Below are positions 6,736-40,887 of a DNA stretch of 64,000 nucleotides, piece by piece. The translations under genes were made by a program, and so were the position numbers. The first letter of the stretch is position 1. Every line of letters begins with the position of its first letter. Below the pieces are notes generated by a model. The model was not told where the DNA came from and searched no databases. It was given only the letters and a program-made list of their open reading frames with translations. This DNA comes from Cinnamomum chago. Its lineage: Eukaryota; Streptophyta; Magnoliopsida; Laurales; Lauraceae. The DNA lies in contig CP142453.1 of assembly GCA_038049695.1 (NCBI GenBank), positions 16,744,001 to 16,808,000 on the forward strand. The letters run 5' to 3'.

Positions 6736-7494
6736 TGTGTGGGGATTTCTACATGATACCAAGATTATCATCCCATCTTAGTTAGGTCAGCACCACTTCG
6801 GTCAGCACCCTCTCAGCTATGTGGAGATTTCTACATGATACCAAGATTATCATCCCATCTCAGTTAGGTCAGCACCCTCTCAGCTAGGTCAGCACCACCT
6901 CGGCCAAGTGAACCACCTCGGCCACGTTCTCCACCTCGGCCAAGTGCTTCACCTCGGCCAAGTGCCTCACCTCGGCCAAGAACTCCCACCTAGGCAGCAG
7001 TGCCAGAATGCTTGCCAAGACGGGTACAAATAATTGTACCTCTATGGAAACCCAACCACGTTACAAAACGTGTCGAGTAATGATGACATGCATCTGGTAG
7101 AGATAAAAAGTTGTCATTATCTGCAATTAAAGAAGTAAGGTCCGATGGGACAATGCCTTCACATACCCCCACTAAGGGAACATAGTACTGGCTGATGGGA
7201 CTTCCATCTCCATCTACCTCCAAAAGTCAACTCTTCAGCCTATATATACATAGAGGTAAACTAAAAAAAAAGGTACGCCAAGGCTTACACTCAGAGACAC
7301 CCTTCCTCTTTTCCTTCTTCCTCCATCCTTTGTTGAGTTGTGGAACTAACTTAGGCATCGGAGGGCCTTGCGCTGACAGCAGCCAGGGTCTCTGATCCTT
7401 TGTTTCTCCTCCTCTTTCAGGTTTTCAGGCAGCTAATCCTTCCCAAAAGTTCTACATTCATCTAAGTAAGTCCGCGAGATTTTTTGCACTTACA
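6736..7494 (+). repeat. 5' LTR of the 6736-17636 element
   Basis: TG...CA ends, 759 bp. It is about 100 bp longer than its partner because a block starting 'tttctacatgatacc' is duplicated in tandem near 6747-6870. It contains a 'cacctcggccaagtgc' short-repeat array near 6895-6985 and a TATA-like 'cctatatatacat' near 7240. Confidence 0.85.
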
Positions 7495-8169: not shown

Positions 8170-8337
8170 ACAGCTTCGGGGTCTCGGTGATAGCACCAGC
8201 CTCGGACTGAACAACACCAGCTTGCTAACACTAGCTCGGTTACAGCGTCAGCTCGGTGACAGCACCAGCTCGGTTACAGCGTCAGCTCGGTGGCAGCACC
8301 AGCTCGGTTACAGCGCCAGCTTGGTGACAGCACCAGC
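8170..8337 (+). repeat. Short tandem repeat 'cagctcggttacagcg' (left part)
   Basis: Degenerate tandem units of about 16-17 bp of the form 'cagctcggtNacagcNc' in the internal region of the outer element. The array is split by the nested element and continues at 16651-16835. Confidence 0.75.
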
Positions 8338-9128
8338 TGTAGACACCTCATTTTGGCCCCCCATGATAGCCTTAAACACTTATCATATATAACGATGCCC
8401 CCATTTCACCCATGATTGAATGGTTAATGGCATGATTCAAATTAATTAATGACGATGAAGATGCTTGTTGATAATTTTAGACTTAGTTCGGCAATTCATA
8501 GAAATTGTGAGAGAAAAGGCCGAATCGCGTTGAGATCTCGAGTTCAACCCACTACTCATACCAGGCATGGACTACAACACTATTCCAAACCCTTTCCAGA
8601 CTACATAGAACACACTCATATTGTTCCTAGAGAAGCTACATATGGTTTGCCTAAATACAATGTGATTAACATGAGTGAAAAGGTTAGAATCATTGATCCA
8701 AGTATCCCTTATTTTCCTGACCTCTGACCATTAGGATCTATAGACCACAAGATTCTACGTTCCGAGAGCTTTCCGACGATATATAGAACGTCCAATTCCG
8801 GCCAACGGATCAAAAGATATGACCCTCGGAAGACTACATAAATGATACCGCACCAGGGACACACTTGGGCGCCCATATAAGTGCGCCCAAGTTCCAAGCT
8901 GCACTTGGGCACACACACAGGTGCGCCCAGGTTCCAAGGACACACAGGTGCGCCCAAGTCGTGTGTGCACCCAAGTTTTGAAATCCACTTGGGCTCCCCC
9001 ACAAGTGCGCCCAAGTCCGATTCCCTTTGTTTTAGTCCAAATTCAACTCGAACCAAACCCTAGGTCAACTGAACCCCAGGTCCCTGCCATTTTCCGACCT
9101 ATGATCACTATGATGTATGGACCAACAG
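8338..9128 (+). repeat. Shortened 5' LTR of the nested element
   Basis: Matches 11444-12380 from its first base, apart from length changes among the hairpin repeats. Homology ends at 'ggaccaacag' (9128). The rest of the 5.2-kb partner is missing. A 92-codon open frame (8449-8727) is identical in the two copies but has no recognisable domain. Confidence 0.7.
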
Positions 9129-11443
9129 CACCATCCAACACCACACATCACATAAACACACCAAAAAAAAAAAAGAATCAAAACTGCCCCCTTAAATCCA
9201 TAAAAAAAAAAAAAAACACATAAATATTTCACCAAAAAAAAAAAACTGAATCTAAATTAACTAAAATACTCAACAAACCCAATCACACCAACTAATTCAT
9301 TAATTTCCACGAATTGCACTAAATCCACTTTTTTCCCCAAATTTTTCCAAAATCCTGTTAGGCATTGATCTCCCCATCAGCACGTCCATTTTTAATTTAA
9401 TTAGAGGCTAGGACCTTTCTCCCCAGGCTGAAGCGGACCTGCCTCACCATTTCCATGAAGACCCATCACCTGTATGGCCATCACAGCTAATGGTAGAACC
9501 TCATTCCACATCTTAGAACTTCATTTAAGGAAAAAGAAAGGAGATAGAAAACTTGGAGGTCTATCCCATAGAATTTGAACAAACCTAATCCATGGTCTAC
9601 TCCTAAAGTTATCTTTGATCAATAATTATCCTCTTTGCAAAATTAGGACCGGACCACTTGGGTTCAAGATTTTTGGATAAAAATAATGAGAAGTGAAAGA
9701 AAGGGGACCATGTCCAATTCAAGAACTAAAACACAAAGAGCCTAAAAATCACAAACCTTCAAAACAATACTAAAATGTGTAAAAAGTCTAAGGAACTTAA
9801 ACCTGAACATAAATATGATAAAACCCACCAACACACATGGTAAAACAACATAATTAATACAATTAATCTAAAAACAAACAAACAAATCAAACTTAAACAA
9901 TCGACTTAAACAAGAAACCCCACTTACTCAAATAAAAGATGAGTTGAAAGCTCTCACATTTAGAGTTTGGAATTGAAGAAAAATATACAAAGGAGAGTAA
10001 AGGGGCTCTCTGCACACGAAATGTGGTGCCAACCATGCTTACACCCATTTCTGCCCCGAGAGCCTAAGAAATTGGCAAAAAAAATAAAATTTGATGACCA
10101 GACCAAAAAAAAAAAAAAAAAAACAAAAAAAAGAAGCAAAAAAAAAAACAAAAAAAAGGGAAGCTAAAGAGGCACACACAGAAAAGCACGACGCACATTG
10201 TTGAACCAAATATTGTCCCATCACAAGGGGTCCAGTCACGTCATGTGCACATTAGTCCCATCACACATACATCTAGCATTGTGCATTGCATCCTATGTCA
10301 TCTCCATCAATAGAAATTAAAATTGTTATTTCTGCAAATTATAATATTAAGTACTGACAGGCAAGAGAGCAGAATTTTTTTAGTGTTTGTCCACTGCAAA
10401 TTTACAACCCAAAAATGAGAACAACAAAAGTGATTCAAACACACTGATGGGGATGAATGACACAAACTTCTGCAAATGGACAACGAAAGAAAGCGACAAT
10501 GAGCCCCGTCGTAGGACTCATGAAAAACTCTTGAGGTAAGTACACCTAACTATGAATTTTCATGATTTTATTTCACGTCTGGAAATTGAGTCGCCGTAGG
10601 CCTCCCTTAAGCGCTTATAATCGGTACGGCGACCATAATACCGTGCTATCACGAATTATGATGTCTGCCGACTCAAATCTTGACGTTGGAGAATGGAATC
10701 CGTGTAACTCGAAACTCTCCATGATAAGCACAAAATGATGATCGAATCTATCCCAGGTTCTCATCTAGGCTTGGGTGAAGACCAAAATCCCTAGAGAGTG
10801 ACGGTTATTCCGGTGGACATTTTCCATTGATTTAGCTTTTTCGATGCATACTCGAGTTTCAAAATAAAATCACTTTTCAAAAAAATGCATCTCATTCTCA
10901 CATGCACCTTACACCATTGCTTGAACTATGTTTGTGATTGCCTTCAAGATCTCTATTATTACTAGTTAGTTTTAACTATGCCTTGAGCATTCAACTATGG
11001 ATGAAAGTCAAAAGACATTATATATGACAAACTAAAAAAATAAAACTCTATTGCAAGAACAAATGAAATTCTAATTGTGACTTAACCAATCCAAAGATTG
11101 ACTTCTGATTCAGACCACCGGGACACAGTACCCACCATCACTTTAAATTAAGCAACCGGGGCACAGTTCCCAACCCGCCACGTGGCAATACCACGGGCAC
11201 CGAGGCACAGATCTCGGGTTTCCAATCAAATCAGTAGGCACGTAACTTCTTCTTTTTTATTTTTTCCCCTGAATCAGGATCGATCCTAGAAAAGTGAACA
11301 TCACCTTTAGAACGAGTTTACAATTGCATACATCCGTAGGCAGCCACTCCCGCGAGCTCAAAAGCTCCCGTGAGTCATGAGTGGTGTGTCTACTTTCTTT
11401 GGAGCACAACTCTCCACGTGTTGCTCTCCAAAGAGGGGCATAC
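9129..11443 (+). other. Non-coding internal region of the nested element
   Basis: AT-rich DNA with several A runs (9163-9174, 9202-9216, 9233-9244, 10105-10160) and no conserved coding sequence. It ends in a purine tract immediately before the second repeat copy, as expected for a 3' LTR junction. Confidence 0.5.
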
Positions 11444-11967
11444 TGTAGACACCTCATTTTGGCCCACCATGATAGCCTTAAACACTTATCATATATAACG
11501 ATGCCCCCATTTCACCCATGATTGAATGGTTAATGGCATGATTCAAATTAATTAATGACGATGAAGATGCTTGTTGATAATTTTAGACTTAGTTCGGCAA
11601 TTCATAGAAATTGTGAGAGAAAAGGCCGAATCGCGTTGAGATCTCGAGTTCAACCCACTACTCATACCAGGCATGGACTACAACACTATTCCAAACCCTT
11701 TCCAGACTACATAGAACACACTCATATTGTTCCTAGAGAAGCTACATATGGTTTGCCTAAATACAATGTGATTAACATGAGTGAAAAGGTTAGAATCATT
11801 GATCCAAGTATCCCTTATTTTCCTGACCTCTGACCATTAGGATCTATAGACCACAAGATTCTACGTTCCGAGAGCTTTCTGACGATATATAGAACGTCCA
11901 ATTCCGGCCAACGGATCAAAAGATATGACCCTCGGAAGACTACATAAATGATACCGCACCGGGGACA

Positions 11968-14900
11968 CACTTGGGCGCCCATATAGGTGCGCCCAAGTTC
12001 CAAGCTGCACTTGGGCGCACACACAGGTGCGCCCAGGTTCCAAGGACACACTGTGTGTGCGCCCAAGTCTCTGGTTACCCTAGAACCCACTTTAGTGCAC
12101 ATTTAGGTCGGTTCTTCACCACTCTTCATAGTTCCGACCCAATCTCAATCCGAAAACGATCCAAAACCAAACCCCAAGCCCATTCGACCCAGAAGATAAC
12201 ATGGGCGCACTTGTGTGTGCACTCAAGTTCTGAAATCCACTTGGGCGCCCCCACAAGTGCGCCCAAGTCCGATTCCCTTTGTTTTAGTCCAAATTCAACC
12301 CGAACCAAACCCTAGGTCAACTGAACCCCAGGTCCCTGCCATTTTTCGACCTATGATCACTATGATGTATGGACCAACAGATTCTACTTTTCAAGAGCTT
12401 TCCAACGGTATATAGAACATCCAATTCCGACCAACGGTCCAAGAGTTATGGCCCGCGGAAGATAGCCCTAACGATCCCCCCAGTAGAGACCACTTGGGCG
12501 CCACCCTAGGTGCGCCCAAGTTTCATCCTGCGCGCCCAGGTGTCCAGTTGGCTTAGAACGGAGCTTGAATACATATTTGTGTGGGTTTCGCTCTATCTTT
12601 CGCAATCCCGACCTGACCTCAACCCGAAAACAGTTCGAAACCGAACCGAAAGCCCACTTAGCCCCAAAACCAACATGGGCCCATCTATGCATGCGCCCAA
12701 GTTCCGAAGCTAACATGGGCGCACCCATGTGTGCGCCCAAGTTCCCCGTAACCCTAGACTTGCCTTGGTTTGCGTGAAACCTCTGGAAACTCATGCAAAC
12801 AGCAGCCCTAACCCCTTCTCCACGAAAAAACCCTTATATAAGGATCTCTTATGTCATTTACAAGAGGGAGGCTACCAAAAAGAATAGAAAAACTAGAAGA
12901 AAAGAGAGAAAGAGAGAGTGGCCACCAAAGAGAGAGCTTTGGATCTAGATGAAAGGAGAAGAAGGAGCTTTTGTTTCCCAAGATTAGCAATGGAGAGAGC
13001 TTCCGAAAGCCATGGATCTACGCGAAAACTTCAACCTACGATTCCGACCGGTATTTATAGATTAGGTTCTCTTCCATTAAATCCAACATCATTAATGTTT
13101 AGAAATATGCTTAGGATCATGCATGCATTATAGATCTGCATTAATAGTAGTATTTTTCAGTAGATCTAATACTTAGTAATCATCCATCATTAGTAACATG
13201 CTTAGGATCATCCCTACTCCGTAGATCTGCATTATTTCTTGCATTCCGAACTCGTGATTAGGATAGACTTTGCATCCATTTCATCTTCATTAAGTAAAAT
13301 CCGAAAAAAATATATATAAAAATAAAATAAAAAAAAGTGCAACAAAACACTTGGGCGCAACTATCTGTGCGCCCAAGTGTCTGCAACAGTCTTCAACCCC
13401 GAGTTTCATAGTAAGCACAATTTATTTCTTAGATCCAAACTCGTTTTTCATACATATTGTTATTGGGACCTTCGGATCTATAATCTTGCATCCCAAATCG
13501 CGCGAAAAGTATCGAGAAAAGAAACAAAGAAGAAGAAAAGTGCAGGAAAAACTTGGGAGCAACTGTGTGTGCGCCCAAGTTTCTGGATAGGCTTTTGGCC
13601 CCGACTTCTCGTTTCGCGTGTACTCTGTTTCTTAGATCCGGGCCTACCCCTATAAAAGTTAGTATTAAAGTCTTCGGATTTGAGAAAAGTGTTAAAAGGA
13701 TTAGAAGGAAGACCAAATATATCGCAAAAGATAAAGGGAAAAAAGAGACAGTGAACTTGGGAGCAACTGTGCGTGAGCCCAAGTTGTGCAGAGAAACTTG
13801 GGAGCAACTGTGTGTGAGCCCAAGTTGTGCAGAGAAACTTGGGAGCAACTGTGTGTGCGCCCAAGTTCCTAATTCGTTTTCCGGCCCGCCTTTTCATATC
13901 TATGCATTCCATTTAGCTTGCTGCTTTATCTTTGTGGTAATTTCAATTGACTACTGAACTTCTAGACTTCGAAGTATCAAATTATCATCATTTTAGGTTC
14001 GGATAAATTGCATAAAATACCAAAAAAATCAAAATCATAAAATATTTCTCCTCTCATCTTACTCTCTAGTAATTAGAGAAGAGGACACAAAAAAGAAAGT
14101 AATTAAAAGAAGTATTAGAATTATAAAATTAGACATTAAGTAGCTAATCTTAGGATATTTCATTCGTGCCTAAGTAAATCAATAAATTTGATCAACTCCT
14201 AATCTAAAACACTTAATTAACTCAAAACACCTAATTAAAATATCCAATTAAAACCCATAGAATTAATTAACTAAATCCCTGAAATTGATTAACAACTCTT
14301 AATAAAACCTTAATTAACAAACCTTAATTAAAATCCTAATTAATAAGCCTAAATAAATTAAAACCCTAATTAACCAACCTTAATTAATAAGCCTAAATAA
14401 ATTAAAACCCTAATTAACAAACCTTAATTAAAATTTTGATTAACAAGCCTATATAAACCAAAACCCCTAATTAATCAAACCCTAACAACAAAACCCTAGC
14501 CACAAATCCCTAATTAAGACCCTAATAGAAACCTAATTAAAGACAATAAGACTCAGCCACACCCAGAGAATAGAGACATTCCCCAACCAGAATACCAAAT
14601 CCGACTTAGAAGCACCCTAGAATTGAACGAACTAGTAGCTCCACAACAGGCAGACACTTAGGAGCAACCAGAGGTGAGCCTAAGTTATTCAGCAAAGATA
14701 GGAGCAACCATAGGTGCACCCAAGTTACTCGGGAAACATAGGAGCAACCAGAGGTGAGCCTAAGTTATTCAGCAAAGATAGGAGCAACCATAGGTGCACC
14801 CAAGTTATTCAGGAAACATAGGAGCAACCATAGGTGCGCCCAAGTTTATCTCCATTACCCGGGACCTCCGAAGCCGTATTGTATTCACTTTGAACCTTGA

Positions 14901-15345
14901 CCTTAATCAACATCATAAGACCATCACAGAACCAATAACAACCCACAAATTAAAGATTTAATTAACTTAAACCCAACCGGAATCTCAAACCGAAATCGGA
15001 CGGGCGAACAATATCAAGGCATCACTTGGGCGCACACACAGGTACACCCAAGTTTACAGAACACCTAGGCGCACACACAGGTGCGCCCAGGTTTCCTGTC
15101 TAGCCCAAGTCGCGAATCTCGGTTACAATTCGAATTCCGGACTTAAACCATTAAGATAAATCAATCCAGAACCTAAAACAACATTAAAACAGAGACTTGC
15201 ATCAAGTAGAAACTCCCCGAATTCCAAAATCAATAGCGATACCATCGTCACCAACCTAAGCACACAAAACCTGACACTTGGGCGCCACCATCTGTGCGCC
15301 CAAGTTGGCTGAGTAACATAGGCGCAACCATAAGTGCGCCCAAGT
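11968..15345 (+). repeat. Dispersed hairpin repeats 'acttgggcgc...gcgcccaagt'
   Basis: About 22 copies of a roughly 31-bp unit whose arms are inverted complements (acttgggcgc and gcgcccaagt) around an 8-11-nt variable centre. Three or four more lie at 8863-9016 in the other LTR. Examples start near 11968, 12007, 12490, 12712, 13350, 13551, 13756, 13797, 13838, 14656, 14698, 15025, 15063, 15275 and 15314. Later copies use the variant 'ataggagcaaccataggtg'. Compensating changes in both arms (gggagc with gagccc) are seen near 13756-13830. Confidence 0.8.
14190..14540. repeat. Degenerate 'ccctaattaa' array
   Basis: AT-rich stretch of repeated 'aaaccctaattaa' and 'ccttaattaa' phrases at 10-20 bp spacing inside the long LTR. 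It resembles degenerate telomere-type motifs (AAACCCT) but shows no regular 7-bp period. Confidence 0.6.
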
Positions 15346-15983
15346 TCTCCGTCAGTCCTACTTCACCGATTTCGACATCTTTCTACCATTTGGGACAAAA
15401 CCTGAAATTCCAGAACCTAAAATAGAACCTCAACATATTTAAAAACACATTAATCAGAACCTTAAAGCATCCCTAAATCACTCTTAATCAACTCATAACT
15501 TAAAACAAACCCACCCAATTTAAGACCATAACCAAATTCCTTAGGCATAGAAATTGCCAAGCTTAGGCTATTTGCACCCTAGGATTATATCAGATTCCCC
15601 CATTAGATAAATTAGAGTATTAAGCTTCGTCCCACCACTTTTCTTGTTCCGTCAGGGGATCGGGAAAGCTGATGTGGGCGGTCTAGGACCTTAGGTTAGG
15701 GTTAATCCGATGATCAATAATAAAGCATTAATCACGTAAATCCAAGTATCAATATAAAAAATATCAAAAATTATGCTAGCCCAATATCAAAAATCCATAA
15801 AAAACCATAAAACCAACAAAATAAACCCAAAAAGATTTTTCCTTTATTTCTTCCTCCACCTCAGGTGCAGATATTTAATCGAACTTAATGATAAAAGGGA
15901 ACAAAGAACTGACTTCAAAAATTGAATAAATGAGAATAATTAGATGAGATGAGTGATTTCACACACTTTGCATATTTTTATTT

Positions 15984-16082
15984 CGGCCCATCGGCCACCC
16001 TAAATCAATCACGGCCCATCGGCCACTCTAAAACAAACACCGGCCCATCGGCCACCTTCAATCAATTACAGCCCATCGGCTT
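15984..16082. repeat. Tandem repeat 'cggcccatcggccac'
   Basis: Four imperfect units of about 30-35 bp near the end of the long LTR. Each begins with a 'cggcccatcggccac'-type core followed by an AC-rich spacer. Confidence 0.7.
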
Positions 16083-16650
16083 TTCACTTTATCACTCGTG
16101 TATCGCACATGAAAAACACAGAAATCACAAGTCAAAGTCTCATTTGCATCATCATTTTGGTTTGAAAAAGTCAGCCTTTAAACCCTATTTTGCCAAGGGA
16201 TTAGAAGGGGGTACCCGGGAACGGGGCCGATCCTCTTCTTAAATATTTGGCACCTCCCCCCTTTTTATTTTCTTTATTTTAATTATTTCATTTCACTTGG
16301 ATATACTATGATTTTGTTGTGTGAGGATTAACCTTATTTGGACTCTAACTCATAACCCTGAATTGACCCTATATTAAAGAGACCCAAAGAGACCCAAATT
16401 AATGTGATAGGAAAACCGTCGTGTGTTGCCGGCAGCACATTAGACGAGAGAAGAACCCACCCATTTATTTTCTCCCATTTTTCTTCGGCTTTTGTCGAAG
16501 AACGGTGTTACGGCCGTTACCGTAGCTGGCAATCGTGATCCATCGATTTTGAGGGTAGTCGGAATCCTCATTTTCGATGTAAAATTTAAATAGCACATAT
16601 AGATGAATGGCGATTTCCCTCCCCTAGGGGATCAAAATTCACATCCGACA

Positions 16651-16835
16651 CCAGCTCGCTAACACCAGCTCGGTTACAGCGCCAGCTCGGTGACAGCACC
16701 AGCTCGGTTACAAGGTCAGTTCGGTGACAGCACCAGCTCGCTAACACCAACTCGGTTACAACGTCAGCTCGGTGATGGCACCAGCTCACTAACACTAGCT
16801 TGGTTACAGCGTTAACTCGGTGACAGCACCAGTAA
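16651..16835 (+). repeat. Short tandem repeat 'cagctcggttacagcg' (right part)
   Basis: Right-hand continuation of the array at 8170-8337, resuming directly after the nested element's target duplication. Confidence 0.75.
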
Positions 16836-21068: not shown

Positions 21069-23100
21069 TTCTCCCACTTGGCCCATATGACCAAGAAAAC
21101 AAAATCCAATATTTTAGTTTTAGGAAATTCATTTTCATATAGTACTTTGAAAAAATGATAAAACGACCTTGACCGATGCGCATCGACTTTTAAAAAATAA
21201 TTGCCAACGTGTCTCTTATGCTGAACCTTAATACTGTGACTAAGTTGGTTTACCAATGTGAACCATAACGGTTACATGTCTTTAATGACATGATCCTTTC
21301 CATAATTACTCCACTACCACCCCAACCTAACCAAGTCCTTGATAAGGGTAAAATAGGACATTTTCAATGGCCATCCTATTTAATTGGGTACAATAATGTC
21401 ATTCTGTTTAATATTCTTATTTTATTCACTTTAATACATGTAAATATTTGACAAAATAAGAATTACGAAATTATTACTGTAATGATGTCCTCAATAATAA
21501 GGCAAATCAATAAGGTCCATATTTCTAATATGCCCTCTATAAGCCTTTGGCGCCAATGCCTTTGTTAACGGATCCGCTATCATTTGGCTCGTTGGAGCCC
21601 CAACAATAGACACCAATCGATCTCGTACCTTTTCCTTTAACACAAAGTACTTAACTTCCAAAAACTTTGATTTACTGGAAACTTTGTCATTTTGAGCAAA
21701 TCTTGTTGCTGCATCATTATCACAAAAGATTTTAAGAGGTTTAGAAATTGTATCCATAATTCATAAACCTGTGATAAAGTCTCGCATCCATAATGCATGA
21801 CCTATTGCTTCAAAACATGCCACATATTCGGCATCAAATGTGGATGGAGTCACTAGGGTTTGTTTCGCACTTCTCCATGATACTGCCCCACCAGTTAAAA
21901 GGAAAATATATCCTGAAGTCGACTTTCTTGTATCGAGGCATCCAGCGAAATTTGAGTCTGAATAACCGATCACTTCTAATTGTTCGGACTTTCTGTATGA
22001 GAGCCTGTAATTCCTAATGCCACTAAGATATCGCAAGACTTTCTTAACTTCTACCAAATACGTCATTCTTGGGTCACTTTGATATCTACTAAACATGCCA
22101 ACTGCAAAACTAATATCAGGTCTAGTGCATGTTTGTGCATACATCAAACTCCCTACTGTAACAGCATAAGGACATTGGTCCATTTGACGTCTTTCGATTT
22201 CATTTCTTGGACTTTGCTCTTTACTAAATTTGTGAATCTTGAGGCCTACATCCTTCCATACAGAATCTTTTAAGAATAGTTTTAATATAGGATTCCTGTG
22301 ATAACCCAAGTAATCATCGAGATCTATCTCGATATATCTCAATTCCTATTACAAAGGTTGCTTCTCCCATGTCTTTCATATCAAAATTATTCTTAAGATA
22401 TTCCTTGGTTTCATGAATTATACCAAGGTCATTACTAGCTAGCAAAATATCATCGACATATAGTATCAATATTATAAACTTGCTCCCGCTAACCTTGAGA
22501 TAGATGCAATGGTCTACTGGATTTTCGGAAAAACCGAATGATGTGATAATGCTGTTAAATTTAAGATACCATTGCCTGGAAGCTTGTTTCAAACTATATA
22601 TCGATTTCTTTAATTTGCAAACTAATTTATTGGTATTTCCTTTTATGAATCCTTCTGGTTGTTCCATGTATACCTCTTTTTCTAAATTTCCATTTAGGAA
22701 CGCTGTCTTAACAACCATTTGATGTAGCTCTAAATTGAAATGAGCTACAAAAGCCATAATTATCCTAAATGAATCCTTTTTAGACACCAGAGAGTAAGTC
22801 TCATTGTAATCAACTCCCTCTCTTTAAGTAAAACCTTTAGCCACAAGCCGAGCCTTAAATCATTCTACATTTCATTTCGAGTCCCTTTTGGTCTTGAAGA
22901 CCCATTTACAGCCTACGGCCTTAGAACCCTTGGGCAGTTCGATAATATCTCAAACCTCATTAGTGGCCATTGATTCTAACTCTTCTTTCACATCATCCAT
23001 CCATTTTTCAGAATTCACACTTTCTATGGCTTTCTTGAACGTTCTAGGATCATCTTTTATCCCAATATCGGCTTCCTCTAAATATACAACATAATCGTCC
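21069..23100 (-). pseudogene. Copia reverse transcriptase and RNase H region
   Basis: Contains RT motifs (LKQASRQWY, the YVDDILLAS active-site block) and the RNase H end (YSDSNFAGCLDTRKSTSGY, DAEYVA). The domain order is that of Ty1/copia. Fossil, broken. Confidence 0.85.
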
Positions 23101-24698
23101 GAAATGGCATGTCTTCTTATTCGAGTTGACCTCCTTAATTCCGGATCATTAGGAAGTGGATTATCAAGATATTCTGGGAGTGGATCATTAATGGGCTGAC
23201 CAATATTATGTTCAACTTGGTCATTTTGTGGTTGTTGTATCTCTTGATAACCATTAATAATATCAAGTGGAACAAACTCATTTTGTGTATCAGGTAACTC
23301 AATATTTTCCCTGATTTCTTTATAAACTATATCTCTTCCTTGAACACTCCCACTATTCTCATGATTCTCCAGAAATTTTGCATTTCCCGATTCTACAATC
23401 TTAGTGGTATGATTAGGACAATAAAACCTATACCCTTTAGACCTCTCAGGATAACCAATAAAATAGCCACTAATAGTTTTAGGGTCTAATTTTCTTTCAT
23501 TTGGGTTATAAGTTCTCACTTCAGATTGGCAACCCAGACTCGAAAATGGTTTAGGCTGGGTTTCCTTCCGGTCCACAACTCAAATGGTGTGTTTGACACC
23601 GCTTTACTAGGGACACGATTTAATATGTATATTGCCATCTTAAGTGCTTCACCCCACATTGATTTGTGTAAAGTAATATTACTTACCATACTCCTAACAA
23701 TATCCATAAGCGTCCTATTTCTTCTCTCAGCAACACCATTCTGCTGAGGTGTTCCAGGCATTGTGTATTGGGCCACAATACCCTCTTTTTCTAGAAATTT
23801 AGCAAATGGGTCTGGGTTACGACCCAATTCGGTGTACTTTCCATAATACTCACCACCTCTATCAGATCTCACTACTTTGATTTTTTTCTCTAATTGGTTT
23901 TCTACTTCTGCTTTAAATATCTTAAAGACATCTAAAGCATCAAATTTCTCTTTAATCAAATAAACATAACCAAATCGCAAAAAATCATCAATAAAGGTGA
24001 TAAAGTATTTGTTCACCTGTAAAACATGGTACATCCATTTTTCCACATATATCTATATGGATTATTTCCAGGAGTTCAGAACTTCTTGTGACACATTTCT
24101 TGTTTGTGTTTGACTGTTTTCCCTTTATACAGTCTATACAAACACCATAATCATTAAAATCAAGATTAGGTAATAATCCATCTTTCATTAATCTGAACAT
24201 TCTTTCTTTTGAGATATGCCCTAGCCTTTTATGCCACAACATAGAGGAGTTCTCTTTAATTGCCACTCTCTTAGTGCAAATGCTCAATTCACAACTAATG
24301 TGTGGTGTGTGCAATGATTGTTCGTCCATAGAATTTAACAGTAATCTACACAATCCACTACATAAATAACCATTCCCAACTAAACATTCATTTCTAGAAA
24401 TTCTCATATAGTTTTGTCCAAAATAAAATTCAAATCCTTCATGAACCAACTTTGAAACAGAAATTAAATTTCTAGAAATATCAGGAACAAGGAAAACATT
24501 ATGGAGGTTCAAAATAAATCCGGTGTCCAGCACCAATCTGTAAGTGCCTATTGCTTCGACTCGTGATTCCTTCCGGTTCCCCATGGCAATAGTCTTTTCT
24601 CCATCATTTGGTTTCCAGCTTGAAAGGAATCCATGCACACAACCAGTTACATGAATGGTTGCACCAGAGTCAACCCACCAAGAAACTTTGTGGAACAT
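23100..24698 (-). pseudogene. Copia protease-integrase region
   Basis: Contains the protease-like WWVDSGATIHVTG, the pre-integrase LWHKRLGHISKERM with the CIDCIKGKQ zinc motif, and the integrase core (SDRGGEYYG, GTPQQNGVAERRNRTL). Fossil, broken. Confidence 0.85.
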
Positions 24699-25534
24699 TG
24701 GTTAAATTGGTTTCATGACATACTAGAGATAAATTTATACCTCTATTTTCAAACCAATTTTTCCACTTTAAGCAATCCTTTTTGAAGTGACCGTTCTTTC
24801 CACAGAAGAAGCATTTCTTCTGTCCCAGTTTTTCCTTCTTTTCTGGTTTTGCAATTTGAACACTTGGCCTTTTCTTGTTCTTTTCCTTTCCCTTGGACTT
24901 GTTATGAGAGACGAAGTTTACCATTAGCCGCTCCTCAACCGTAAGCCTTCTCTCCTCTTGATCACATCTAGCAATTAATTCTGTTATGGTCCAAAGTGTT
25001 GGGTTTTGATTGTAGGCAACCTTAAATGGGCCAAAAGAATTAAGAAGGGAGAGAGTCCAAAATGAATTGTATCAAGTACTTTTTTGACACACTCATATCC
25101 ACTTGTTCCAATCTTGAAACAATATTTTGCATTGATAAAATATGTTCTCTCACTCCCAAAGTTCCATCATATTTCATGCTTGATAGGCGGCTTATAATTA
25201 GTGATGCCCCTACAACCTTGTCAGTTATCTTGAACTGCTCCTTTACAGTATCTAAGAGATCCTTTGCATTTTCGATTGTTCCAAGGGATCCCCTAATACT
25301 TCTTGAAATAGAGTTCAAGATAATCTTGGTTGCTACCTTGTTAGCCTTGATCCATTTCTCAAATTTTGCCTTTTCATCACTAGATGTTTCATTTGTAGGA
25401 GTTGGGGGTTTAACCTCATCAAAGACTATATCCAAATTCAAGAAGGTTATGGCTATCATTAGCATGTCCATCCATTCTAGAAAATTTGACCCATCTAAGG
25501 TAGGAATAGTCCCTAATGTAGAAAGTGCTGCCAT
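24670..25534 (-). pseudogene. Copia gag region
   Basis: Copia-type gag with the LDGSNFLEWMDML start motif, the ISRLSSMKYDG region and one CCHC zinc knuckle (CFFCGKNGHFKKDC). Fossil, broken. Confidence 0.85.
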
Positions 25535-27017
25535 TGATTTAGTTACTGAAAATAAACAATAATATCCACAAGTTACAATACATCATTGTAAATCTACCTT
25601 TGGGAATGAAAACAACATGCATAATAATCACTTTTCTTTAATTAATAAGACTACGTTAATAATATGATGCGATTAAGATGATTATTCCTTTGAGCATAAA
25701 TCATTCTTAATTACATCACATTACCAACAATATCTTATTCCGATTTCTATTCCATGAAGATTGAACCTTTGGGCATTTCCTCATATCTTTTATGAAATCT
25801 CAATTTAGTGTTATTATAATCACACAAATAATGGTGATGTGCCCTTATTTCAATTTAGAAATCGAACAATTCTTCATGACTTGGTTGCTTTGGCAACTAT
25901 CAAATCAATCCAAATCATTCATTTCTAATTGAAATTATAATAACAAAATTTTCATCATGACACATCCTTAATTGGAATCTTTATTTTTCTCTAATGATCT
26001 AAGGTGACATAAGTTTGACATAACAACACATAATCAGCTAAGTTACAAGCTATTATACACTTTGATTGCATAAAATAAATCATCCATGATGCGAAAATAA
26101 ACTTTAATGACTTATTTTAATATTTAAAAAATATACCAAAATACTATAGACACCCCATAATTGATCCAAACTATTCAGATTAAAGATCTCAATAATAGAA
26201 ATTCATAGGAGAAAACGGATTGAAATTCCGAGTTCCCATGAGTCCGATATGATCAAAACAAATTCTGGATCACCCATTTGGACTAATTTGATCAATTCTA
26301 AAATTGGGTCAGTTCTGGAATTCATTTGGGCTAATTAACCATGCCAACAGACACCATTTAATAAGTAGAACATTCTGGAAAATTTTCTTCCAAAACTATT
26401 CTGGGCTCAGGGGCTCTTTAATGGGTCAGGTCGGACCCGTAACTTGATTCTGCCCAACAGTCAGCTGGCTAGGCTGGGCTAGAGCAGGTCAGGTGTCTGG
26501 CCCGGCCCAGCTAGCATTCCAAATGGTGGAGGCGTTGCTGCTTCTGCCAGTTTGCTGACAGAGGCAGCACCGCACAGTGCGCCTTTGATCATCAATTTTT
26601 TTTATTTTTTATTTTTTAAAAGAACATTTATAACATAATAACAAATCATTAACAGTGATTAATACAACCTTCATTATCATTCTTTCATGCCCAAAATAAA
26701 TTGACAGTAACAATAAAAAAAATGATGACAGTAAATCTATAGATATTCCATTCTCTATATAATTTCTTAAACCAAGAAAATATAGATAAATAGAATATGA
26801 TCTTTTATTCTCATCTCTTCCAGATTGGGTTGGGCACCATAATACTCGATTTATGAGTCTCTTCTTTCCAATAAAATAGAATCCCTTTTATCAAATACCC
26901 AAAACTTCTTTCACTCGGGCATTTGGTTTGATTTCCGAGGAGAACCCATAAAGCCCCAAAATCTTAGAATATGTAAAAAAAAATCTTGAAGCAATCATTT
27001 GGCTATACCCAAAGATG

Positions 27018-36020: not shown

Positions 36021-36098
36021 TGTCCAGAACTCAACTCCGAAAATCTGATTCCTTCTCTCTTCTTTTACACCCATTTCTCCATTACACCTCTGCAACCT

Positions 36099-36966
36099 TG
36101 TTAGTATTTTTGTTGGCTAATTCATGGGTTGGACAAAACTCTGGGTCCATTGAGTTGTATTTTCTAATTTATTTTAGAATGGACTGTGGTTACGTCGCCG
36201 GAAGAGCTGAAGGGAAAAAGAAGACCGGGCGAATTTTCCCAGGCCCGATCGATCGGAGCCTCAGATCGATCGATCGGTCAGAAAAAGGTCTCAGTTAAAT
36301 GTCAGGCCGATCGATCGGACCTGCATGACCGATCGATCGGACAGTGTGCAGATTCCGGGAAAGTCTCCTATTTTCACACGAAGTTGTTTCCTTTTGAGAC
36401 TCTGTTTCCTAGTTTGAGTCCTACTTGTGCACTAAGTCTTAGGCACGAATATTGGGCTATTTATAGGGTGTTTCTCTCAACCCTAGACCACCACCACAAC
36501 TCTCATTGATCTGAGTCAGAGATATTTTAGAGAGAGTTAATCTCTAGAGCCATTGAGAGATTATTCTGAAGGGCTGCTCTAGAAAGTTGTTGCTGCTTCT
36601 ACTTTCTTGTAGAAGATTGATCATCTTGGTTGACAAGGTGTGAGGAGATCAAGTAAGGAGAACGGGGCGCGGTGGATGTCGTGTCAGTGGATTCTTTGCA
36701 AGAATAACTACAGTCCTTGGGTCGAGGTACAGACTTAGGTAAAGGAGCTTGTGAGTATATCTTGTAACTGTTCGTGAACTCTTGATTTCTGGTTCGTGGT
36801 TTTTCTCCCTGGATAGGGTTTCCACGTTAAATATTGTGTCTGCCTTCTTGTGGTGTGTGATTGGTAGATAGCTAGTTCTATATTGTCTGATTGATTTATT
36901 TCCGCTGCATTGATTGGTTAAATAGAACTAGTAATCCATTCTAGTAGCCCCATATAGAAATTTTCA
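36099..36966 (+). repeat. 5' LTR of the gag-only element
   Basis: 868 bp, TGTTAGTATT...ATTTTCA. Contains four CCGATCGATCGG-type palindromes at 36245-36340 and a TATA-like 'gctatttataggg' near 36463. Confidence 0.9.
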
Positions 36967-36967
36967 A

Positions 36968-36979
36968 TTGGTATCAGAG
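36968..36979 (+). promoter_or_regulatory. Primer binding site of the gag-only element
   Basis: TGGTATCAGAGC about 2-3 bp after the 5' LTR, matching initiator tRNA-Met as in Copia elements. Confidence 0.85.
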
Positions 36980-37021
36980 CGGGTTGCACTATTTTATTGT
37001 GTTGATCCAAATATTGCTAGA

Positions 37022-38872
37022 ATGGATACCTATCGTGAAGGCACTTCAACCAATAAGCCTCCTCTGTTGGATGGTAACAATTATGCTTATTGGAAAGCCA
37101 GAATGGTTGCCTTTTTGAAAGCCATAGATCTGAAAGTTTGGAAATCTGTTGTGAATGGCTATTCTTTGCCCATTATTACTGCTGATGGGATAACTGAACC
37201 CAAACCTGAAGATAAGTGGACAAAGGATGAAGAATTGGCTGCCACTTGCAACTCTAGGGCTTTAAATGCTATTTATAATGGAGTTAGCATATCTGAGTTT
37301 CGTAGAATTTCTACATGCACTACTGCAAAAGAAGCTTGGGATATTCTGCAGACTGTGCATGAAGGGACTGAAACTGTCAAACAGTCGAAACTTCAGAAAT
37401 TGTATACAGCCTTTGAAACCATAAAAATGGAGGATGATGAAACTTTTGATGAGTTTAATGCAAAGCTGAATACAATTGTGAATGATACCTTTACTTTGGG
37501 AGAGCCAATTCCTGAAAATAGAGTTGTAAAAAAGATTCTGCGGTCTCTTCCAGAAAGGTTTGATGCAAAGGTTGTGGCCATAGAAGAGAATAAAAATCTG
37601 AATATTCTCAAAGTTGAAGAATTAGTTGGCAACCTTCAGACTTTTGAAGCAAACCTAAGAAACAATGGAAAATCAAAATCCAAAGGTGTTGCTTTGAGAG
37701 CCTCCAAAGAATCATACAAGAAAATTTCTAGTGATTCTGAGTCTGATTCTGAGGAGATTGATCCCCAAGTTGTTGTTGAGTTTATGAAGCAATTTCAAGC
37801 GTTCATGAAGGGGAAGAAAAGTAATTTGAAGATCCCTAAAAATTTTGTAAAGAAGAAAACTACTAAAGGGATTAAATGTTTTGAGTGTCATGGTTATGGA
37901 CACATTGCTAGTGACTGTGCTAACAAGAAACCAAAGAAGAAGGCTTTCAATCTGACTTGGGATGATGATACTTCTGAGGAAGATGATAAAAAATCTGAGT
38001 CTGAGAAGCCTGATGCTAGCAAAGAAAAATTCATGGCATTCATGGCAACATCAGTTTTTGCTACTCCACTTGTTTCTGATGAAGAGACTGATCCAGATGT
38101 TAGTGAGTCAGAGACAGAACATGATTGGCAAGCTGAATATCATATATTGTTTGCAAAGACCATGAAGATGCTCAAGATGAATGAAAAAGTGACTACAAGT
38201 TGGAAAGAATCTGAAGAGCAGAATACTTCTTTAAAAACTGAATTGTCTGAAGCTCTTACAAAAGTGAGTCACTTAGAGGCTGAAAATAACAAATTGGCAG
38301 ATGAATTGACTGCGGAAGCACAGAAGTGTGTTTTGATTAATCATGATATGAAGATCTTGAAAGCTGAAAATACCGATTTGCAAGGAAGACTCAAGATGGT
38401 TCTTTCTGAGTTGGATACAAGCAAGGCTTCCCTAAACAGGATGAATGCTGGGTCTAAAAAACTTGATGACATCCTGTGCAGTCAAAAGGCAAAGAATAAC
38501 ATGCATGGCATTGGCTACGCTGACGGGGCATCTACATCAAAAGCCAAAGGTAATAATTGTTTTGTTCAAAATTCAGTTGTTACTAATTCTGCTGGTCATG
38601 TTACAAATACAGATTCCAAGAAGAAGAATGTGTCACGCCCTGAACGTATACCCACTTGTCATCACTGTGGAATTAAAGGACACATTCGACCCCATTGCAA
38701 TAAGCTGCAAAAGTCTCCAAAACAAAAGCAATGGAAAAAGCAGAAGGAAGCGTCACCTATGAAAACCAAAACTGTCTGGGTCAAGAAAGAAGACCTTCCA
38801 TCTGTCTTAGTACACACTATGCTGAACTATCTGAAAATGCAAGTGTGTGTGCCAAAGCTTCATCACCCCTGA
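37022..38872 (+). CDS. Gag polyprotein of the gag-only Copia-type element
   Basis: A long open frame of 616 residues from the ATG at 37022 (MDTYREGTSTNKPPLLDG). It has the Copia gag start motif (PPLLDGNNYAYWKARM), a UBN2-type gag core (W.IL...HEGTETVKQSKLQ, then FDEFNAKLN and ILRSLPERFD), a first CCHC knuckle (CFECHGYGHIASDC, near residue 286), an acidic stretch, a predicted coiled coil (about 385-470) and a second CCHC knuckle (CHHCGIKGHIRPHC, near 548). This two-knuckle, coiled-coil layout is typical of large Copia gags of the Sire/Tork kind. It would form a particle shell but has no enzymes. An earlier in-frame TTG is not taken as the start. Confidence 0.85.
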   Translation: MDTYREGTSTNKPPLLDGNNYAYWKARMVAFLKAIDLKVWKSVVNGYSLPIITADGITEPKPEDKWTKDEELAATCNSRALNAIYNGVSISEFRRISTCTTAKEAWDILQTVHEGTETVKQSKLQKLYTAFETIKMEDDETFDEFNAKLNTIVNDTFTLGEPIPENRVVKKILRSLPERFDAKVVAIEENKNLNILKVEELVGNLQTFEANLRNNGKSKSKGVALRASKESYKKISSDSESDSEEIDPQVVVEFMKQFQAFMKGKKSNLKIPKNFVKKKTTKGIKCFECHGYGHIASDCANKKPKKKAFNLTWDDDTSEEDDKKSESEKPDASKEKFMAFMATSVFATPLVSDEETDPDVSESETEHDWQAEYHILFAKTMKMLKMNEKVTTSWKESEEQNTSLKTELSEALTKVSHLEAENNKLADELTAEAQKCVLINHDMKILKAENTDLQGRLKMVLSELDTSKASLNRMNAGSKKLDDILCSQKAKNNMHGIGYADGASTSKAKGNNCFVQNSVVTNSAGHVTNTDSKKKNVSRPERIPTCHHCGIKGHIRPHCNKLQKSPKQKQWKKQKEASPMKTKTVWVKKEDLPSVLVHTMLNYLKMQVCVPKLHHP

Positions 38873-39144
38873 TCTACATGATCAAGCCCCCACCCCAGTG
38901 CTGATACGAAGATCATCTTGAAGGGGAGTCTATTTAGGGGGAGCTACAAAATCCAGATTGACAGAAGCTACTTGAAGAAAATTGGTTGTTAATTGTGGAC
39001 AAAAAGGGGGAGAATACTGAAGCCAGGGGGAGAAACAAGCAAAGATCTACAGATGCTGATTTTTTTTGAAAATTCAATGTATTTTGGGTTTTTCTTTTGG
39101 GTAGATCATTTGTATTGTTTTAGGGAGTTTTGTCCATGAATTGC

Positions 39145-39156
39145 CAAAGGGGGAGA
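39145..39156 (+). promoter_or_regulatory. Polypurine tract of the gag-only element
   Basis: The purine run aaagggggaga lies immediately before the 3' LTR. Similar 'aaagggggag' and 'agggggagaaa' runs near 39004 and 39027 suggest several tracts, as known for Sire-type Copia elements. Confidence 0.65.
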
Positions 39157-39157
39157 T

Positions 39158-40025
39158 TGTTAGTATTTTTGTTGGCTAATTCATGGGTTGGACAAAACTC
39201 TGGGTCCATTGAGTTGTATTTTCTAATTTATTTTAGAATGGACTGTGGTTACGTCGCCGGAAGAGCTGAAGGGAAAAAGAAGACCGGGCGAATTTTCCCA
39301 GGCCCGATCGATCGGAGCCTCAGATCGATCGATCGGTCAGAAAAAGGTCTCAGTTAAATGTCAGGCCGATCGATCGGACCTGCATGACCGATCGATCGGA
39401 CAGTGTGCAGATTCCGGGAAAGTCTCCTATTTTCACACGAAGTTGTTTCCTTTTGAGACTCTGTTTCCTAGTTTGAGTCCTACTTGTGCACTAAGTCTTA
39501 GGCACGAATATTGAGCTATTTATAGGGTGTTTCTCTCAACCCTAGACCACCACCACAACTCTCATTGATCTGAGTCAGAGATATTTTAGAGAGAGTTAAT
39601 CTCTAGAGCCATTGAGAGATTATTCTGAAGGACTGCTCTAGAAAGTTGTTGCTGCTTCTACTTTCTTGTAGAAGATTGATCATCTTGGTTGACAAGGTGT
39701 GAGGAGATCAAGTAAGGAGAACGGGGCGCGGTGGATGTCGTGTCAGTGGATTCTTTGCAAGAATAACTACAGTCCTTGGGTCGAGGTACAGACTTAGGTA
39801 AAGGAGCTTGTGAGTATATCTTGTAACTGTTCGTGAACTCTTGATTTCTGGTTCGTGGTTTTTCTCCCTGGATAGGGTTTCCACGTTAAATATTGTGTCT
39901 GCCTTCTTGTGGTGTGTGATTGGTAGATAGCTAGTTCTATATTGTCTGATTGATTTATTTCCGCTGCATTGATTGGTTAAATAGAACTAGTAATCCATTC
40001 TAGTAGCCCCATATAGAAATTTTCA
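39158..40025 (+). repeat. 3' LTR of the gag-only element
   Basis: 868 bp, the same length as the 5' LTR; the palindrome cluster recurs at about 39304-39399. Confidence 0.9.
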
Positions 40026-40887
40026 AACCTGCAAGAACAATGGGACCTCCTGTCCCCTCCTCACACACCATCCATTTCCAATTAATCTAACAATAATACA
40101 TAATCTAATTAGGGTTCTAAAACCCATAATGCACCCTAATCATCATTTCTTTCTATCAAAATCCACAAACTACCTCAACAAGCATAAGTACATGTATAAC
40201 TTGCCTCAAATGAAGCTTTGCTTGCCACAAACCCTTGTTTAGCTTGGCTCGAGTAGGAATTCCTCAAAGTGAAGCTTGATTTGCAATAAAATGATGAAGA
40301 AGATGAAGTATATAGTCTCCTCTTCTCTTCACTCACCTCAATTCACCCTCAAAGGAAGAAGAACGAAAGAAAGAAGAAAGGAAAACATGAAACGGATGTT
40401 GCCTAGGGTTGGAAAACAAGAGGAAATGAGATGAATGATGTTCATCTCATCTTATATGAGATTATTTTGCATTGAAGTCCCTTTTATTTCCTTTAATCTC
40501 AATCCAAGTCAATTCAAGGTCCATTTGATCCAATATTCATCGAATCAATTCAAGTCTTATAGGAAAGTTATCGTACTCGTCGAGATACATATGCGGGTAT
40601 CAGTGTTTCAAGTAGGATATTGGAATCACAAACCGCATTTGGCTTTTCCCGACATAAATGGTGAAATGGACTTTTGGAACATCTGGAGCTGGAATAAATG
40701 GACTTCTAGCTAGGGATCGACGTAGAATCTCCTTTCCTTGAATCATACCAGGCAAACGGATACCCATGATTAGTAACTACTCTTTGCTGAGAAGTAAACA
40801 AATGGAGTTCTAAGGATTTGATATGAAGGAAGGCTTGAAGAATCAGAAGGATGAATTTCGAATGAAGTCATAACATGGATGTGTGTG

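Follow-up and report, generated by a model that had tools for sequence, protein, structure and literature searches.

A fixed-gap array of 30-bp dyad units in a giant retrotransposon long terminal repeat of Cinnamomum chago: candidate paired protein-binding sites

Introduction

Repeated palindromic motifs are known from the Sireviruses, a group of Ty1/copia retrotransposons, in which 8-32 copies per element lie in the long terminal repeat (LTR) and sometimes before the env-like gene; a cis-regulatory role has been proposed for them, with no common binding factor found (PMC2829016). The present study concerns an array of palindromic units in the LTRs of a retrotransposon in Cinnamomum chago, located in a stretch of 64,000 nucleotides (contig CP142453.1, positions 16,744,001 to 16,808,000; hereafter the window, with position 1 as its first letter). 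Like the repeated-motif boxes of the Sireviruses, this array consists of a high-copy dyad motif within the LTR, near a conserved TATA box and in fast-diverging surroundings (PMC2829016). It differs from them in its host, which by domain order would belong to the Tat clade of Ty3/gypsy and has an LTR of 5.2 kb, and in its geometry, as 10-bp half-sites stand at a fixed distance of 10 bp here whereas the Sirevirus palindromes are nearly contiguous, with 0-4 intervening bases by our reading of the consensus (PMC2829016). The Sirevirus motifs have a CGG-CCG core and form CpG islands, whereas the consensus core here is GGGCGC and the units show no CpG excess (observed/expected ratio of 0.48 inside the 21 units of the complete LTR and 0.81 outside); in addition, unlike in the Sireviruses, the units here are found on both sides of the TATA box (PMC2829016).

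Motif arrays are also known from VANDAL transposons, in which they are bound by an element-encoded anti-silencing protein (PMC5735166, PMC10398659). The VANC arrays resemble the present one in being a dense short motif in the non-coding parts of one transposable element family, with tandem duplication and subfamily-specific variants (PMC5735166). However, VANC21 motifs are 9 bp long and in one orientation, and the string "palindrom" is absent from the main text of that report; moreover, the VANC binding protein is known and its element is a DNA transposon, whereas the binder here is putative and the element an LTR retrotransposon (PMC5735166). The giant Ogre/Tat elements, which reach about 24 kb and have LTRs as long as about 5 kb, an aRH domain between the ribonuclease H (RH) and integrase (INT) domains, and tandem repeats in their non-coding parts, resemble the present family in these respects (PMC6317226, PMC7004042). 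The descriptions of Ogre/Tat repeats in these sources concern tandem repeats in 3′ untranslated or expanded non-coding regions, not fixed-gap palindromes in the LTR (PMC6317226, PMC7004042). Another report on palindromes treats those at insertion sites and not those within LTRs (PMC6911290).

The units and their fixed gap

A scan for the two arms allowing at most 6 mismatches revealed 24 units of the form ACTTGGGCGC-N10-GCGCCCAAGT between positions 8863 and 15345, in all of which the gap is exactly 10 bp and the length 30 bp. Three of them lie at 8863-9016 in a truncated 5′ LTR and 21 at 11969-15345 in the 3′ LTR; the number of about 25 given in a preliminary description of this DNA is thus nearly right, and its unit length of about 31 bp is to be corrected to 30. 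The scan gave 40 rows; the other 16 represent half-units or matches by chance, most of them with a gap other than 10, and tightening to at most 5 mismatches leaves the count at 24. Perfect units make up 6 of the 24, and right half-sites without a left partner at gap 10 begin at 8950, 8967, 12059 and 12532. Half-sites with at most one mismatch occur 42 times in the window, compared with 1.16 expected from shuffled sequences, and 40 of the 42 lie inside the two LTRs. Independent of any motif, 10-bp inverted repeats with at least 9 pairs and a gap of 10 number 12 in the 3′ LTR, against a mean of 0.17 and a maximum of 2 in 100 Markov-1 simulations; gaps of 6, 8 and 12 are also high in this test, presumably because longer palindromes are counted shifted. 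Neither a described RNA family (Rfam, gathering score) nor a tRNA was found in the window, and the exact unit pattern has no match in viral contigs.

In the genome searched (1.06 Gb, 14 contigs), the unit pattern with at most 2 mismatches is present at 6,804 places, and its reversed control at none. The exact arms are found with a gap of 10 at 1,978 places, compared with 17 places for gaps 0-9 and 69 for gaps 11-40 (86 with a gap other than 10; reversed controls 0); among the matches listed, several of the 69 arise from a pair of adjacent units in which one arm is damaged. When gaps of 4-20 were allowed at 40 loci, part of which overlap, the gap was 10 in 335 of 338 units, and 411 units contain 113 different loop sequences. 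All of the 15 gap-10 loci examined among the matches listed (L001-L004 and L035-L045, representing 13 distinct places, all on contig C1) match the window LTR or another LTR of the family, and five loci chosen for a unit with a gap other than 10 (L047, L049-L052) also lie inside family LTRs. In two loci, L026 and L030, a further unit pair precedes the start of the LTR by about 1.4-1.5 kb. The gap-16 look-alikes L046 and L048 were rejected as family members, containing no units and matching none of the compared LTRs; arms at gap 16 with a different, shared centre were seen at least 5 times (C1:109259561, C3:25398379, C4:7390950, C5:7620773 and C7:12366101).

Constraint on half-sites and gap

Diversity and length were analyzed for the first 8 units, in the LTR part that is covered by many copies. 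Among 30 LTR copies (excluding that of the window), locally masked non-CpG diversity is 0.039 in the arms, 0.092 in the flanks, 0.097 in the loops and 0.116 in the adjacent 10 bp, so that the arms are 2.4-fold less variable than the flanks and the loops vary like flanks but keep their length. The unmasked estimate (arms 0.109, flanks 0.188) is inflated by misaligned copies. All 8 units have arms less diverse than their local flanks, and none of 5,000 random placements was as low. Length is kept in 188 of 203 unit windows and in 2,000 of 2,481 flank windows; these figures replace an indel estimate from BLAST (55 of 314 unit and 935 of 4,380 flank windows), in which registers within the 40-bp arrays were seemingly mixed.

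The boundaries of the unit are sharp. In a de-duplicated set of 131 units that differ by more than 20% across 90 bp, information content rises from 0.33 bits outside to 1.61 bits at the first base and falls from 1.34 bits at the last base to 0.45 outside, and the loops have a mean of 0.84 bits compared with 0.20 in the flanks. As units were selected by their arms, the information of the arms is inflated; loops and flanks played no part in the selection. In this set, both half-sites tolerate the same main substitutions, namely T3 to C or A and not G, G5 to A, and G9 to A. In the L037-type subfamily, most units have the shifted motif ACCTGGGCGC-CACCCCCTGG-GCGCCCATCC or one near it, with the gap unchanged. 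What is conserved is each half-site together with the spacing.

Independence of the two arms

The preliminary description had regarded the co-occurrence of gggagc and gagccc as a double change by which the palindrome is kept. The reverse complement of gggagc is gctccc; since GGGAGC pairs with GCTCCC and not with GAGCCC, the two changes break two pairs, and the units at 13755 and 13796 keep 8 of 10. The folding energy of the unit at 13796 is -11.6 kcal/mol and that of the perfect unit at 13349 is -19.5 kcal/mol, with loops that also differ. The covariation test proposed there gave 7.324 Watson-Crick pairs per unit for 139 distinct arm pairs and 7.287 with right arms shuffled (p 0.28), and 8.282 and 8.229, respectively, for the 131 de-duplicated units (p 0.135). 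The arm changes are independent and do not detectably covary, and by the criterion of the preliminary description itself its suggestion of a maintained palindrome finds no support. Two subsets lean to pairing below significance: the 22 units found in the 3′ LTR of the window at up to 7 mismatches (8.14 vs 7.99 pairs, p 0.08) and the 75 arm pairs that carry changes in both arms (7.04 vs 6.88 pairs, p 0.05). Among single transitions in the de-duplicated units, 45 keep a G-U pair in the sense RNA and 81 do not (uncorrected p 0.002), and the corresponding numbers over distinct arm pairs are 79 and 108; the former imbalance, uncorrected for relatedness, could be due in part to the left arm being more variable and to an outer-arm change in the L037-type subfamily.

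Spacing and turnover of modules

Across 50 sequences, comprising the window and 49 loci, 395 distances between adjacent units were measured, of which 182 are 39-41 bp and just 10 others fall below 150 bp. The spacing had been called irregular, which holds at long range, while close neighbours keep this 39-41-bp distance. Within a doublet, which spans some 70 bp, half-sites recur at intervals of about 20 bp. The spacers of close pairs comprise at least 21 kinds at more than 3 edits and 12 at more than 4 edits, or 34 if length variants are counted as different.

In 194 pairwise alignments, 67 length differences of 20-90 bp over units were observed, including 25 of 20 bp, 24 of 39-41 bp and none of exactly 30 bp; the 67 cases are not independent, and those of 20 bp largely compare one place of the window LTR with many copies. 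In one array with a 40-bp period, the window carries five units, and L060, the 5′ LTR of the relative L059, carries nine. Simple tandem duplication, a possibility raised in the preliminary description, does not fit the array, as flanks, spacers and loops diverge and the arms and their geometry stay.

The host element and its relatives

The element extends from 8338 to 16650 with the target duplication CCAGC on both sides (Table 1). The preliminary description had spoken of a giant LTR, and this is confirmed by the 3′ LTR of 5,207 bp, which has TG...CA ends and is preceded by AAAGAGGGGC, resembling a polypurine tract (PPT). In the 5′ LTR, 8338-8960 corresponds to 11444-12069 at 98.6% and 8961-9128 to 12213-12380 at 97%, about 143 bp being lost internally. 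The segment between the two LTRs (9129-11443) matches 3′ non-coding sequence of a relative, so that this copy lacks its coding region and the remainder of its 5′ LTR; the arm scan found no units in this segment. The TATA-like box has units to either side. A 17/34-bp tandem array of CACCAGCTCGGTTACAG at 8183-8337 and 16651-16832 was split by the insertion of the element.

Table 1. Features of the retrotransposon and of its unit array (positions in the window).
Feature	Positions	Strand	Remarks
5′ target-site duplication CCAGC	8333-8337	.	directly precedes TGTAGACA
Truncated 5′ LTR	8338-9128	+	units 8863-8892, 8903-8932, 8987-9016; right half-sites 8950-8959, 8967-8976
Internal remnant, 3′ non-coding part with PPT-like end	9129-11443	+	91.5% identity to the 3′ non-coding region of relative L053
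Complete 3′ LTR, 5,207 bp	11444-16650	+	TGTAGACA...TCCGACA; 21 full units; TG...CA ends
Unit doublet	11969-12038	+	11969-11998, 12009-12038; upstream of TATA-like box; arm scan
Orphan right half-site	12059-12068	+	half-site and arm scans
Unit doublet	12199-12268	+	12199-12228, 12239-12268; arm scan
Single perfect unit	12492-12521	+	arm scan
Orphan right half-site	12532-12541		after unit 12492; several relatives are 20 bp longer there and have a full unit
Unit doublet	12673-12742	+	12673-12702, 12713-12742; arm scan
TATA-like box TTATATAA	12834-12841	+	8-mer shared exactly by 24 of 31 aligned LTRs; 4 carry variants and 3 cannot be aligned at this place
Single perfect unit	13349-13378	+	arm scan
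Single unit	13551-13580	+	arm scan
Three units, 41-bp period	13755-13866	+	13755, 13796, 13837; GGGAGC/GAGCCC changes in the first two, pairing broken
Five units, 40-bp period	14656-14845	+	14656, 14696, 14736, 14776, 14816; arm scan
Unit doublet, 39 bp	15024-15092	+	15024-15053, 15063-15092; arm scan
Unit doublet	15276-15345	+	15276-15305, 15316-15345; arm scan
3′ target-site duplication CCAGC	16651-16655	.	directly follows LTR end

The relative L059 contains an open frame of 2,802 aa running from GAG to INT, in which a search in four pieces revealed the domain order gag, protease, G-patch, RT, RT_RNaseH, RVT_3, Integrase_H2C2 and rve; RVT_3 is taken as the aRH domain between RH and INT. The window LTR and L060 are collinear, and 26 units were counted in the 5 kb of L060 examined. 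The gag-to-INT order with aRH is that of the Ogre/Retand arrangement (PMC6317226). Judged from such relatives, as the window copy is without its coding part, the family is placed as an Ogre-like member of the Tat clade of Ty3/gypsy. The length of the LTR, 5,207 bp, is at odds with membership in Retand, whose described LTRs measure 315-1,194 bp (PMC11963269). Ogre elements are reported with two open reading frames (ORFs) about 270 bp apart (PMC6317226, PMC7004042), whereas L059 has a single one, so that the assignment is no finer than "Ogre-like Tat". The LTR starts are 16.2-18.6 kb apart in four same-strand pairs, certain other neighbours being wider apart; the element length is this distance plus one LTR.

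Coding-deleted relatives contain a long frame, seen as 590 + 754 aa in L054:837-4871 (minus strand) and at other places too. Among 59 copies scored, 15 keep it free of stops over 1,317-1,364 aa; towards the C-terminus it bears basic repeats in tandem (RPRPKWRRSKTFQRSRFR-like), and its dN/dS is 0.29-0.57 among six copies, with about 0.8 for two near-identical pairs. Two long ORFs of one such relative had no Pfam match at E 0.1 and showed no meaningful similarity to the polyprotein pieces in three comparisons.

Other features of the window

Two direct repeats of 870 bp at 36098-36967 and 39157-40026, 99.8% identical, flank a frame of 645 aa that matches a copia-type gag, and 36098-40026 looks like a young gag-only copia element. 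Broken pieces of a copia gag-pol (gag, pre-integrase and SH3-like matches) are present on the minus strand at 21761-25582. An ORF on the minus strand at 47925-48407 matches the auxin-responsive SAUR family.

Possible functions of the array

The units probably form an array of dyad sites for a putative sequence-specific protein that controls the LTR promoter or its chromatin. Each 30-bp unit would be a site in double-stranded DNA with dyad symmetry, in which two copies of the half-site ACTTGGGCGC(AC) face each other with 10 bp between them, their centres 20 bp, or about two helical turns, apart. Separate constraint on each half-site, similar tolerance of substitutions, a gap that is fixed over free loops and the two-turn period together point to paired identical DNA-binding subunits; this pattern is harder to obtain from RNA pairing, recent duplication or conversion, for which reason we read the units as binding sites and infer protein binding, a dimeric binder and an effect on transcription or chromatin. 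The preliminary description had offered protein binding, RNA hairpins and recombination sites as options; the first survives on the conserved half-sites and spacing, while the covariation argument fails. The binder would be a dimeric or paired protein encoded by the host or by the element. With 21-26 sites per LTR (in the window and one relative) around the TATA box, the array probably acts as a cis-control region, either an enhancer or a target of anti-silencing. The copy number of the units goes up and down by gain and loss of 40-bp modules made of a unit and a spacer. TTGGGCGC resembles an E2F site, with one mismatch to TTTSSCGC, and is mentioned as a lead only.

A more specific version, tentative and rather doubtful, is that a paired protein encoded by the element itself coats the roughly 20 sites of each LTR in trans and keeps the promoter unsilenced, sites and reader drifting together between subfamilies, as the motif shift of the L037 type suggests. 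Candidate readers would be the N-terminal part of the polyprotein or the protein of about 1,330 aa of the coding-deleted relatives. If this were true, the VANC principle would have evolved independently in an LTR retrotransposon.

Several observations do not sit easily with paired binding sites. The units have one orientation relative to the LTR, since among scorable units the fuller ACTTGGGCGCAC is in the right half alone in 243 and in the left half alone in 16, and a symmetric site would not need such polarity; common descent may explain it. Some spacers are plainly related, and duplication accounts for part of the 40-bp rhythm. The length is changed in 15 of 203 unit windows (481 of 2,481 in the flanks), and differences of 20 bp also occur. 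At position 8 the two halves are unlike, the left changing mostly from C to A or T and the right mostly from C to T. In the L037-type subfamily, the outer right arm is largely gone, with ATCC or AGCC in place of AAGT, although core and gap are retained. Lastly, the position pair 5/26 shows 10 compensatory changes where 3.1 are expected (3 and about 1.7 in the de-duplicated set), which is the strongest single sign of arm pairing.

The constant orientation would suit units that act as RNA, with 10-bp stems and 10-nt loops in the LTR transcript serving Gag binding, packaging, translation or termination. Three perfect units out of six folded reach -17.6 to -19.5 kcal/mol, and the slight pairing excess of the two subsets (p 0.08 and 0.05) leans the same way. 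However, the other three reach only -6.9 to -11.6 kcal/mol, the overall excess is not significant, and a loop would not require exactly 10 nt. Wobble changes are fewer than mismatching ones (45 vs 81; 79 vs 108), the reverse of what a sense hairpin predicts, an argument that leaves an antisense hairpin unaffected. Taken together, a role as RNA appears unlikely. The same low standing is given to a functionless by-product, in which the 40-bp module and larger blocks were multiplied by slippage or strand transfer and homogenised by conversion. Tandem arrays of 40-41 bp, the five and nine units of one array, gain and loss of 40 bp, larger duplications within the LTR and the related spacers are in line with such an origin, and tandem repeats are common in Tat elements (PMC7004042). 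Nevertheless, conversion or duplication would homogenise loops and spacers too, and these diverge like flanks whereas the arms do not; nor does such an origin lead one to expect sharp 30-bp boundaries in 131 de-duplicated contexts or a gap that seldom drifts.

It is quite improbable that the palindromes are read mainly by the host, with hairpin transcripts feeding small RNAs that mark the element for silencing. Palindrome clusters in maize Sirevirus LTRs do show an excess of small RNAs (PMC10760457, citing Bousios 2016), and the same source notes no obvious peak in Ty3 elements (PMC10760457). Such reading would not explain why the element itself retains the sites, and would perhaps be a side effect and not the cause of their conservation. 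Sharp 30-bp boundaries in many contexts could also be expected of a tiny mobile palindrome inserting into LTRs; yet no pair of occupied and empty sites differing by 30 bp occurs in the 194 pairwise alignments, and the 15 of 15 gap-10 loci among the matches listed lie inside one LTR family, which makes mobility of the unit hardly credible.

Significance

The boxes of the Tnt1 LTR are symmetric and taken as transcriptional activators, and occur in few copies in a small LTR. Symmetric or repeated activator boxes of Tnt1 are also named in the Sirevirus study (PMC2829016). The closest known system is that of the Sirevirus repeated motifs, from which the array differs in superfamily, core, gap and size, and a fixed-gap dyad array appears to be new in Ty3/gypsy; among the titles listed from open papers, none reports a palindrome array in Tat/Ogre LTRs. 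The rigid 10-bp gap and the 20-bp rhythm of half-sites allow a clear and cheap test for the binder and for its activating or protecting effect, and the thousands of natural variants in one genome constitute a ready-made mutational scan. That a giant Ty3/gypsy LTR carries such an array, with thousands of copies of the unit in one genome, suggests that separate lineages of LTR retrotransposons converged on a similar control layout.

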